A stretch of DNA of 56,163 bases, from the NCBI GenBank assembly GCA_035948415.1, contig DASZJD010000003.1, forward strand, positions 1-56,163, written 5' to 3'. The notes below the pieces were generated by a model. That model was not told the DNA's origin. It worked only from the letters and a program-made list of their open reading frames with translations, and made no database searches. Positions 4,248 through 53,704 of this stretch are shown in pieces (positions within the stretch are counted from its first letter, which is position 1; every line of letters begins with the position of its first letter). The position numbers and the translations under genes are program-made. The DNA is from Acidimicrobiia bacterium. Lineage in GTDB: Bacteria; Actinomycetota; Acidimicrobiia; IMCC26256; PALSA-555.

Positions 4248-5243
4248 CTACGCAGCCGGCGTCGCGTCGCCCGCCGTGGGGTCGACGACCACCTTGCCGA
4301 GGGCCCGGCGGTCGGCGACCGCCCGCAGCGCCTCGCCGACTCGTTCGAGGGGGAAGACCGCCGAGACGTGGGGCCGGATGGCGCCGGCGGCGAAGAGCTC
4401 GGCGAGTTCGTCGGCGTCGCGGCGCGCCGCATCCGGGGCGTGCTGCGCAAAGGTCCGCATCTCGAACCCCTTCACGATGACGCCCTTGAGCAGCACCAGG
4501 TTGAGGGGGACGCGGGGGATCTCACCGGAGGCGAAGCCGACCACGACGAAGCGGCCGCCCCATCTCGTCGCCCGGAGGGCCGGCTCGGAGTACGCGCCGC
4601 CCACCGGGTCGATCACGACGTGCGCACCGCCGGTCAGGTCCTTGATCCGCTCCTTGAGGTCCTCGCGGGTGTAGTTGACCGTCGCCTCCGCGCCGCGCGC
4701 TCGGCACAGCGCGAGCTTCTCGTCGGTCGAGGCCGCCGCCAGCACCCGCGACCCGAGGTGGTGGGCGACCTCCACCGCCGCGAGCCCGACGCCACCAGCC
4801 GCACCGAGCACGACGGTCCACTCCCCGGGCTGGACCTCGGCGACGCTCCGCAGGGCGTGGTAGGCGGTGGTATAGACGACGCCGAAGGCGGCGGCTTCGG
4901 TGAAGGTCACCGAGTCCGGGACGGGGCTCAGCGCCGCTTCGGCCGCAGCGACCTCGTCTGCGAACGCGCCGGTGAACCCGGCGCCGCAGACGCGGTCCCC
5001 GACGCGGACGGTCGAGACGCCGTCGCCGACATCGAGCACGACCCCGGCGAACTCGCTGCCGGGCGTGAAGGGCAGCGGAATCGACACCTGGTACTCGTTC
5101 GCGACGACGAGAACGTCGGGGTAGTTCACCGATGCCCCTCGCACGCCCACGAGTGCCTGGCCGGCCCGCAGCGTCGGCGCGGGGACCTCTTCGACGGCGA
5201 GCGTCTCGGGGGGCCCGTACTCGTTGCATCGGGCGGCTCTCAC
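4248..5243 (-). CDS. NADPH:quinone oxidoreductase-like MDR enzyme
   Basis: A 331-residue zinc-independent medium-chain dehydrogenase that probably transfers hydride from NADPH to a quinone or enoyl substrate in the cytosol. The GroES-like N-terminal domain (PGSEFAGVVLDVG near residue 60) is followed by a Rossmann fold with the quinone-reductase version of the glycine motif, GAAGGVG, near residue 147. The structural-zinc cysteine cluster is absent. The start is a GTG at 5243. The secreted protein downstream begins 8 bases after this gene's stop. The exact electron acceptor cannot be read from the sequence. Confidence 0.88.
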   Translation of the reverse strand: MRAARCNEYGPPETLAVEEVPAPTLRAGQALVGVRGASVNYPDVLVVANEYQVSIPLPFTPGSEFAGVVLDVGDGVSTVRVGDRVCGAGFTGAFADEVAAAEAALSPVPDSVTFTEAAAFGVVYTTAYHALRSVAEVQPGEWTVVLGAAGGVGLAAVEVAHHLGSRVLAAASTDEKLALCRARGAEATVNYTREDLKERIKDLTGGAHVVIDPVGGAYSEPALRATRWGGRFVVVGFASGEIPRVPLNLVLLKGVIVKGFEMRTFAQHAPDAARRDADELAELFAAGAIRPHVSAVFPLERVGEALRAVADRRALGKVVVDPTAGDATPAA

Positions 5244-5849
5244 GGCGGTCCTCTCCGGACGGGCTGGTGCGGGGCGGTGGGTGGGACGTGTGCAGGCTCG
5301 CCGCCGGCTCGGGCTGAAGGCAAGCGCGGCGCGACCGGCTGGGGCATCCTGGCGACCGGGTCAGCCCGAGCCTGTGGGAGGTGCCAACGATGCCTGTCGA
5401 GCGTGGCCGGGACCGCGAGGGGCCCTACTACCGATGGGGCAAGCACGGTGCGAAGTAGCGCTACACCGCGAAGGACCCCCGCAGCCGTGAGGCGGCACGA
5501 GCGCGCGCGACTCGGCAGGGGCAAGCCGCACACGCCCGCGGGTACGAGTAGTTGCTGCGCGGCCGAGCCGGGTCGCGCTTCGGCTCCGCTAACCCATCGA
5601 CGTCCGAGCAGCTCGCCGCTCGGCCTGCGCCAACGAGGCCGGGCCGCGGCGTACCGCCGAAGCCGGTCGTCGACGCCTGGAGCACGGCGACGCGCCGACC
5701 CGGGCCCGTCGAGCCGAGCGAGTGGCGTGGGACACGGACGCCGGCAGGGCAGCCTGCGGGGGTGAGGGCCCGCGGTCGACGGGCGCGACCACACTGGTCC
5801 CGGCGCCGAGGCTCCGGGCCCGGCGGTCGGGCAAGATGTCGAGGAGCGG
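5244..5849. other. 606-base gap holding only one interrupted small gene
   Basis: Between the divergent quinone oxidoreductase and DUF1254 genes I see one credible coding unit, the TAG-interrupted frame at 5390-5551. The remaining sequence is GC-rich with no frame of convincing composition, no tRNA-like fold and no repeat I could recognise. The promoters for the two flanking genes should lie here, but I could not define their boxes. Confidence 0.5.
5390..5551 (+). pseudogene. Small basic protein gene interrupted by an in-frame TAG
   Basis: A strong ribosome binding site (GGGAGGTG, 5376-5383) precedes ATG 5390. The frame encodes MPVERGRDREGPYYRWGKHG-AK, then TAG at 5456-5458, then RYTAKDPRSREAARARA and onward to a natural TAG at 5549-5551. 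The reading on both sides of the internal TAG is continuous and resembles a family of roughly 53-residue basic bacterial proteins in which a tyrosine occupies the stop position (AKYRYTAGD-like). That resemblance is from memory. A single change from TAC or TAT would explain it. It may be a recent nonsense pseudogene, a sequencing error, or a 22-residue truncated product. Confidence 0.55.
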
Positions 5850-7253
5850 ATGGCGCGGGCGAGGGTCGAGGTCGGCGTCATCGTCGCGGTCGCGGCGCTC
5901 GTCGCGGCGGGCGCCGCGGGCACCACCCGCAGCGCGTCCGGCTCGCCGAGCGGCGCCGCCACCCTTCGAGCCTCGGCTGCCGACGCCGCCCGACGGGCGG
6001 GCCCCGGCGTCGATCGGATGGCCTTCCAGGCCGGCGTCGAGGCCTACGTCTGGGGCTTCCCGCTCGTCACCATGTCGCGGACGCGCGGCCAGGTGCTCTG
6101 CGGCATTCCCGTCAACACCCTCATCAACGTGCCGCGTCTGCTCGATGCGGGATCGCGAGTCGTGGTGACCCCGAACGCGGACACGCTGTACTCGTCCGCG
6201 TTTTTGGACCTGCGTCCGGGCCCGATGGTGCTCCGAGTCCCGGCCGTCCGGGATCGGTACTACGTGTTCCAGTTCCTCGACATGTACACGAACACGATCG
6301 CCGACGTCGGGACCCGCACCAACGGTGGCCGCGCCGGTGCGTACGCGATCGTCGGCCCCGGGTGGCACGGGCGGCTCCCGACCGGGACGGGCCGAATCAC
6401 GGCCCCCACGCCGGACGTCTGGGTCATCGGTCGAACCCTCGCGGCCTTATCGCGCGACGTCGCCGGCGCCGCGGCCGAACAGCGGCGGTACCGCCTCCAG
6501 CCGCTCTCGAGTCTCACGCCCCGGGCCGGGGCGAGCGCTCCGGCGTGCTCGCCGCCGTCGGCGCCCCGGCCGAGCTTCACGGGTGAGCTGGCGACGGCCA
6601 TAGGCGCCGACCCTCCGCCCCCACGTGATCGGCCGATCGTCGCCGACCTGGCCGCCGCCGGCATCCGACCGGGCCTCGTGCCGAACGCGGCCGCGCTCGC
6701 GACCACCGAGGCCAGTCGGGCCGCGGCGCTCGAGATCATCCGACGCGTCGGCAGCCGCCTGACGACGGCGCGGAACGGGTGGACCCGACTCCACGGCACC
6801 GGGAGCTACGGGACCGACTACATCACGCGCGCGGTGGTCGCGATGGTCGGGCTGGGGGCGAACGTCCCCGACGAGTCCGTCTACTACTTCGCGGCGACCG
6901 ACGAGGGCGGCGCGCCGCTGAGCGGCGCGGCCTCCTACGTGATCCACTTCCGGCCGGGCCAGCTCCCACCGATCGACCCGCGCGCGTTCTGGTCCATCTC
7001 CCTCTACGGACCCGACCACTTCTTTGTCGCCAACCCGGTCGATCGGTACGCGGTCGGGGACCGCACGGAGGGTCTGACCCGCGGGCACGACGGCTCGCTC
7101 GACGTCTTCGTCTCCCACTCGCCCCCGCCGGGCCACGAGGGGAACTGGCTACCGGCGCCGGCCGGCAGCTTCAACCTCGTCCTTCGTGCCTACCTGCCGG
7201 GACCTGGTATCCGCTCCGGCTCGTGGACGCCGCCTGCGGTCCGACCCGGCTAG
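5850..7253 (+). CDS. DUF1254/DUF1214 domain secreted protein
   Basis: A 467-residue protein with an N-terminal signal peptide or anchor (hydrophobic residues 7-24 followed by a Ser/Ala-rich stretch). The DUF1254 part covers about residues 55-200, with the EAYVWGFPLVTM and TPNADTLYSSAFLDL motifs. The DUF1214 part covers about residues 310-450, with FWSISLYGPDHFFVANP and a closing NWLPAP-like segment. This pair is widespread in bacteria and its biochemical role is unknown. The start ATG 5850 follows GAGGAG closely. The C-terminus is complete. Confidence 0.85.
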   Translation: MARARVEVGVIVAVAALVAAGAAGTTRSASGSPSGAATLRASAADAARRAGPGVDRMAFQAGVEAYVWGFPLVTMSRTRGQVLCGIPVNTLINVPRLLDAGSRVVVTPNADTLYSSAFLDLRPGPMVLRVPAVRDRYYVFQFLDMYTNTIADVGTRTNGGRAGAYAIVGPGWHGRLPTGTGRITAPTPDVWVIGRTLAALSRDVAGAAAEQRRYRLQPLSSLTPRAGASAPACSPPSAPRPSFTGELATAIGADPPPPRDRPIVADLAAAGIRPGLVPNAAALATTEASRAAALEIIRRVGSRLTTARNGWTRLHGTGSYGTDYITRAVVAMVGLGANVPDESVYYFAATDEGGAPLSGAASYVIHFRPGQLPPIDPRAFWSISLYGPDHFFVANPVDRYAVGDRTEGLTRGHDGSLDVFVSHSPPPGHEGNWLPAPAGSFNLVLRAYLPGPGIRSGSWTPPAVRPG

Positions 7254-52821: not shown

Positions 52822-52918
52822 GACCCAACCTTGGCATGCACCCGCCGTCGGGCCGCGGCGGGACGGCGACGCGTCGAGCACCCGATTCGGGCGGTCGCGG
52901 CCGGCCGACGCGGCGGCG

Positions 52919-53704
52919 TCAGGGCAGGTCGAACGCCAGCCAGCGCACCTCGACCTCGGCCACGACGGACGAGTCGAGCGCGCCGTGCTCGGTCGCGGCC
53001 CAGGCCCGGGTCCGCTCCGCGGCGGCGCGCAGGACGACTGCGGGCACGTCCCAGGTCCACGACCAGTGCCCGGCCTCGAGGCTGTTGATCATGGAGTCGA
53101 GCGTCGTCGTGCGGGTGGCCCGCACGAGCGGGAGGGACCGCTGGCGGGCGCCGAGCCCGCGCAGCGCCGCGGCCAGCTCCTCGCCGTCGTGGCGGGCGCC
53201 GGGGTGCTCGCCGGCGTCCGACCCGAGCTCGTGTCGGAAGCGGTCACGCACGGCCCGGCGCAGGGTGCTGCGGTCGTGGCTCCCTAGGTCGCTGAGGACG
53301 AGGCCGCCGGGCCGAACCACCCGCGCCAGCTCGACGAGGGCCGTCCGCCACGCCGGGATGAGGTGGAACACGTGCGACACCACGCCGGCAGCGAACCACG
53401 CCGCCGGGAACGGCAACGCGGTCGCGTCCCCTTGGACCAACGGGAACGCGATTCCGCCGGCCTTCTCGATGAGCACGGTCATCATCGGGCGCGAGAGGTC
53501 GACGCCGGTCATCGGGACGCCGGCCTCGTGGAGGGGCAGCGCGACGCGACCGGTGCCGACGCCGACCTCGAGGCAGGCGCCGCGGCCGTCGAGCTCGGAG
53601 ACGAGGAGCTCGGTGACGCTCGCCGTCGCGGCGGCCCCGAGCCCGCGGGTGGCGTCGTAGTAGGGCGCCGCCCGGTCGAAGCTCCGGGACGACGTCTCCG
53701 CCAC
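52919..53704 (-). CDS. Class I SAM-dependent methyltransferase
   Basis: A 261-residue methyltransferase of the UbiE-like type. SFDRAAPYYDATRG is the usual first helix, LEVGVGTGRVALPL is motif I, MTGVDLSRPM gives the acidic ribose-binding residue, GDATALPFPAAWF is motif II, and VVRPGGLVLSDLG is motif III. GTG 53704 is chosen, with frames further upstream rejected. It diverges from the secreted lipase gene. The acceptor is not known; a quinone, lipid or small-molecule target is possible. Confidence 0.87.
   Translation of the reverse strand: MAETSSRSFDRAAPYYDATRGLGAAATASVTELLVSELDGRGACLEVGVGTGRVALPLHEAGVPMTGVDLSRPMMTVLIEKAGGIAFPLVQGDATALPFPAAWFAAGVVSHVFHLIPAWRTALVELARVVRPGGLVLSDLGSHDRSTLRRAVRDRFRHELGSDAGEHPGARHDGEELAAALRGLGARQRSLPLVRATRTTTLDSMINSLEAGHWSWTWDVPAVVLRAAAERTRAWAATEHGALDSSVVAEVEVRWLAFDLP

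Follow-up and report, generated by a model that had tools for sequence, protein, structure and literature searches.

The interrupted frame and its two halves

The window analysed here is the whole 56,163-nucleotide stretch of contig DASZJD010000003.1 (C3), from a 3.4-Mb Acidimicrobiia draft genome in 133 contigs (98.31% completeness, 1.86% contamination). Between an oxidoreductase-like gene upstream and a DUF1254/DUF1214 gene downstream (window 5850-7253), there was a short reading frame at 5390-5551, interrupted by a single TAG, which consisted of the following features.

5377..5383, + strand: Shine-Dalgarno-like GGAGGTG before the ATG, read from the sequence
5390..5455, + strand: ATG start at 5390 and first 22 codons, with the two N-terminal strands of the domain (profile, relatives' columns 1-22)
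5456..5458, + strand: in-frame TAG at codon 23, in place of a residue that is tyrosine in all but one of the 23 aligned relatives
5459..5548, + strand: 30 codons after the TAG, with the domain's third strand and its helix (profile, columns 24-54)
5549..5551, + strand: closing TAG, one codon ahead of where the 13 aligned stand-alone relatives end

This anatomy (ribosome site, ATG, 22 codons, TAG, 30 codons and a closing TAG) agreed to the base with the initial annotation, and a GGAGG-like site stood at the same place in most of the relatives printed. The codon list contained no ATG, GTG or TTG in frame between the two TAGs, and so a restart within the second half is unlikely. Promoter and terminator scans found none.

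Profiles of each half were built from 14 relatives and searched against 916 frames of the window. The half preceding the TAG (profile columns 1-22) was ranked first with E = 2.5e-13, the runner-up having E = 1.2; the half following it (columns 24-54) was likewise ranked first with E = 1e-11, against 0.37 for the runner-up. Set against 2000 shuffles, the first half scored 48.2 bits and the best shuffle 10.2, while the second half scored 40.7 bits and the best shuffle 17.3 (the program reported 1690 of the 2000 shuffles for the first half and all 2000 for the second). With the stop read through, the whole length matched the 54-residue family at a profile E of 1.6e-21; the frame is uninterrupted in that family and broken here by the TAG at codon 23. 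A first search of 99 other genomes returned two clear, full-length homologues free of stops (G014, E = 1.1e-15; G084, E = 4.4e-14), the remaining matches, none better than E = 0.0019, being close to or at the level of chance. Judged by homology, the reading frame is genuine both before and after the TAG, and the possibility raised at the outset that the frame beyond it was a chance one was not borne out. The openness of the last 30 codons was dropped as evidence (chance p ~0.72), since stop triplets are very rare here and openness is uninformative.

In the alignment of 23 relatives, the TAG column was occupied by tyrosine in all sequences except L106, a viral-contig protein with lysine, and by a stop in none. 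The tyrosine that the initial annotation had given for this position was therefore correct. This alignment omitted same-sequence repeats (L005, L044, L045, L046, L048, L049, L051, L052, L054 and L111) and the near-repeats L109 and L110; L113-L115, which were added to the collection afterwards, duplicate sequences of the alignment. The AlphaFold model of an intact relative, L034, had strands at residues 3-8, 11-16 and 22-24 and a helix at 30-51 (mean pLDDT 84.8, 11 sequences). The residue replaced by the TAG is within the third strand, and the stop would thus remove this strand together with the only helix; on this model, a product ending at residue 22 would presumably be inactive.

A search of the PDB by fold gave nothing at E 0.001 (best E = 1.6). 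On a second look the maximum Z was 3.5, for dsRNA-binding and ribosomal chains, which was too weak for naming a fold, and the PDB search by sequence gave a single chance-level match, to fibronectin (E = 0.38). Foldseek against BFVD identified two uncharacterised proteins from uncultured Caudovirales phages at E <0.001.

Domain family, distribution and neighbourhood

The small protein family is poorly described. The focal copy had no match in PHROGs or NCBIfam, and its match to Pfam WGR (12.6 bits, E = 0.15) fell short of the gathering cut-off of 22 bits. Pfam Tox-WTIP (cut-off 25 bits) was matched weakly by three of 14 relatives (best E = 0.045; the one score shown was 14 bits) and was not reported for the focal copy. 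No Pfam family exceeded its cut-off in the one member for which scores were shown, and E-values were weak in the 14 scanned.

Viral relatives came from IMG/VR, where one search produced 11 loci and another two, L042 being found in both and L043 and L111 lying on the same contig. At nine of the 11 loci the domain began a protein of 111-184 residues, while L106 and L107 encoded it as a short protein, with 56 residues in the former and 53 in the latter. Domain genes were located as follows.

L042: 2573-3115
L043: 2998-3555
L056: 1501-3144
L106: 2487-2654
L107: 3001-3159

The proteins of 552 and 569 residues that precede the domain gene in L042 and L043 may be portal proteins, to judge solely from their position; their own best E was 0.19, with no Pfam match, and Pfam and PHROGs gave nothing at E 0.01 for the tested neighbours of the L042 and L043 genes. 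L056 is a bacterial contig with a prophage-like stretch, in which the domain gene follows a Mu-F-like gene. Here, the domain forms the start of a protein of 547 residues, which also has DUF2213 (29.1 bits, cut-off 22), a head-maturation-protease match (E = 5.4e-6) and a best PHROGs match of no known function (E = 1.9e-21). It is plausible that the chromosomal copies derive from phages. A protein search of phage and plasmid records returned nothing at E 0.1.

The gene was thinly distributed at every level sampled. It was present in 11 of 395 genomes in the class sample, including the focal genome and after removal of one chance-like match (G156, E = 6.9e-4), which had two internal TGA; the ten other good matches contained no stop. 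In the phylum sample there were four of 396, again including the focal genome, and the three others also lacked an internal stop. The order yielded two of 58 (focal included), and the class of G503 three of 66. Twelve genomes were searched within the family, and the gene was missing from all 11 besides the focal genome, the single congener among them. Nine loci in named genomes belonged to Acidimicrobiia, Acidimicrobiales, Actinobacteria, Nitriliruptorales and one unplaced MAG. The intact 54-residue family thus occurs in a minority of Acidimicrobiia and Nitriliruptorales genomes, and on IMG/VR viral contigs. Such patchy presence indicates an accessory, dispensable gene, and one that may move or get lost easily.

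The initial annotation had suggested looking for the small gene beside DUF1254 in relatives. By tblastn, no DUF1254 relative was found at any of 14 relatives' loci, which span 3.2 to 6.2 kb each (two are from one contig). Among 13 genomes searched for the DUF1254/DUF1214 protein, eight of them other family genomes, only G014 had it besides the focal genome, and there it is encoded on C61 while the small gene is on C87. DUF1254 is not a conserved neighbour. Like the small gene, the DUF1254/DUF1214 gene was missing from the eight other family genomes searched, one of them the congener, and this stretch may therefore be a region of gene gain. At one of the 14 relatives' loci (L039) there was a protein 28% identical to the product of the upstream oxidoreductase-like gene; when the flanks of 13 loci (two from one contig) were compared by eye, neighbours were common to some loci only. 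At L036 (2521-2950) and L038 (1366-1789) an intact small gene was followed by a gene for a CsbD-like stress protein, and at L037 a ferritin-like gene lay about 900 bases downstream. From these few loci, a link to stress is possible.

Explanations for the in-frame TAG

The divergence of the two halves was compared, taking identity before codon 23 minus identity after it. Between the focal copy and 13 stand-alone relatives this difference ranged from -0.02 to 0.27, which falls inside the range of -0.04 to 0.28 obtained when intact relatives were paired with one another (78 pairs); the top focal value of 0.27, in the comparison with L055, is near the upper end of that range. Since the second half has not diverged more than expected, the TAG probably arose not long ago, with the reservation that the nearest relatives are just 60% identical and a few recent changes would escape notice. 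The relatives' letters are uniform in 14 columns; the focal copy keeps 13 of these, including six of the seven after the TAG. The lost column is G54, present in all 13 relatives that reach it. In addition, column 28 is lysine in the focal copy, where 22 of 23 relatives have glycine and L055 serine. Together, K28 and the missing G54 hint at relaxed constraint on the sequence.

A stronger argument for decay was considered, as K21 and G28 had seemed invariant in 14 relatives and the focal copy departs at both besides lacking G54; two rows with missing ends aside, none of the 14 departs at more than two such columns. This argument was weakened by the wider set, where L055 and L106 share alanine with the focal copy at column 21 and L055 has its serine at column 28. 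What is left of it is K28 and the early end, which occur in no aligned stand-alone relative.

The initial annotation had left three options, nonsense mutation, sequencing error and readthrough, among which the evidence favours a recent nonsense change. The gene of a dispensable, 54-residue basic protein would have been hit by one nonsense substitution at a conserved tyrosine, probably recently. Translation would end with residue 22, short of the third strand and the helix, leaving no folded protein, and the result would be a nonsense allele on its way to becoming a pseudogene. A probability of about 0.6 was given to this reading, in which a dispensable gene of patchy distribution has recently become a nonsense allele or a young pseudogene. 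This reading takes the codon to be real in the organism and to stop translation, the event to be recent and the function to be lost. Counting against it, there is just one interrupting lesion, and the retention of all but one of the 14 uniform columns would equally be expected if the gene were expressed or the TAG were a sequence error.

Unlikely, yet the strongest of the competing explanations, is a consensus error or strain mixture, by which the gene would be intact and the TAG a wrong or minority base. The single lesion and the conserved columns are as expected under an error, in a draft of 133 contigs with 1.86% contamination. However, 156 other family matches across the genome (61 ABC-transporter and 95 short-chain-dehydrogenase) contained no internal stop, from which it appears that such errors are uncommon in this genome, while K28 and the early end point to a copy that would be unlike its relatives even without the TAG.

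Readthrough of the TAG, by suppression or near-cognate misreading, would give little full protein, perhaps in a regulatory way, and was considered improbable. The even divergence of the two halves agrees with it, as does the account of bacterial genes in Belinky et al. 2021 (PMC7918605), where in-frame stops are reported to be widespread and dN/dS to stay <1. Against it, no stop stood at the TAG column in any of the 23 aligned relatives. RF1 was present and uninterrupted (467.7 bits, cut-off 423.25). There were 44 Rfam matches to tRNAs, 43 of them called by ARAGORN, plus one extra ARAGORN gene; none of the 44 ARAGORN genes had a CTA anticodon, and the 45th tRNA, a partial one where a contig ends, has the anticodon CAT as read by eye. 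Pyrrolysine insertion, which would need pylT and PylS, likewise had no CTA tRNA among these 45 in its favour. The tRNA set is incomplete, with a single Val tRNA, and an unassembled tRNA with the CTA anticodon is possible. A tRNA scan of the window gave none. The RNA after the in-frame TAG folded no more strongly than shuffles (z = +0.89, from a single sequence), and Rfam had no family match in 5200-5900. TAG is not a selenocysteine codon, and the initial annotation was right to exclude this form of recoding. In sum, no support for recoding was found. The narrower proposal of low-level or regulated readthrough, with an amino acid inserted at the tyrosine position and protein made in traces or under certain conditions, is somewhat more doubtful again.

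Reassignment of TAG to an amino acid, for which it can be said only that this frame continues with homology across its TAG, is practically dismissed, being contradicted by stop usage. Of 39 ORFs that a simple caller gave for the window, 17 end in TAG (14 of 33 without six likely shadow frames, in which GC1 is above GC3; one more doubtful ORF, 52836-53660, is among the 39). One of them is the DUF1254/DUF1214 gene, in which the last domain is already complete when the TAG is reached. The interrupted gene, too, ends in TAG, and the genome has RF1 and shows no internal stop in the 156 matches.

Comparison with related and interrupted genes

As a nonsense allele, the locus records a routine, ordinary event. 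Such genes would be missed or truncated by gene callers, and this one leads to a small domain without a Pfam family over cut-off, common to actinobacterial chromosomes and viral contigs. Should readthrough prove true, the locus would offer a compact natural test of whether in-frame stops lower expression in bacteria.

With the stand-alone 54-residue family (L004, L033-L041, L047, L050 and L055) the focal gene shares its start, its length, 13 of 14 uniform columns and a GGAGG-like site; it differs in having TAG at the tyrosine column, an end one codon early, A21 and K28. Five viral-contig proteins (L042, L043, L104, L105 and L112) and that of L056 carry the same domain, 45-60% identical to the focal copy, but in these six it begins longer proteins of 180-547 residues, whereas the focal domain stands alone.

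According to Belinky et al. 2021 (PMC7918605), in-frame stops are widespread among the genes of bacteria, for the most part do not last long and are enriched in the mobilome class; dN/dS is reported to stay <1, and artefacts are warned of. The focal case fits this picture. Like the nonsense-interrupted bacterial genes treated there, it has one in-frame stop in an otherwise recognisable gene; unlike those cases, the focal gene is known from one strain.
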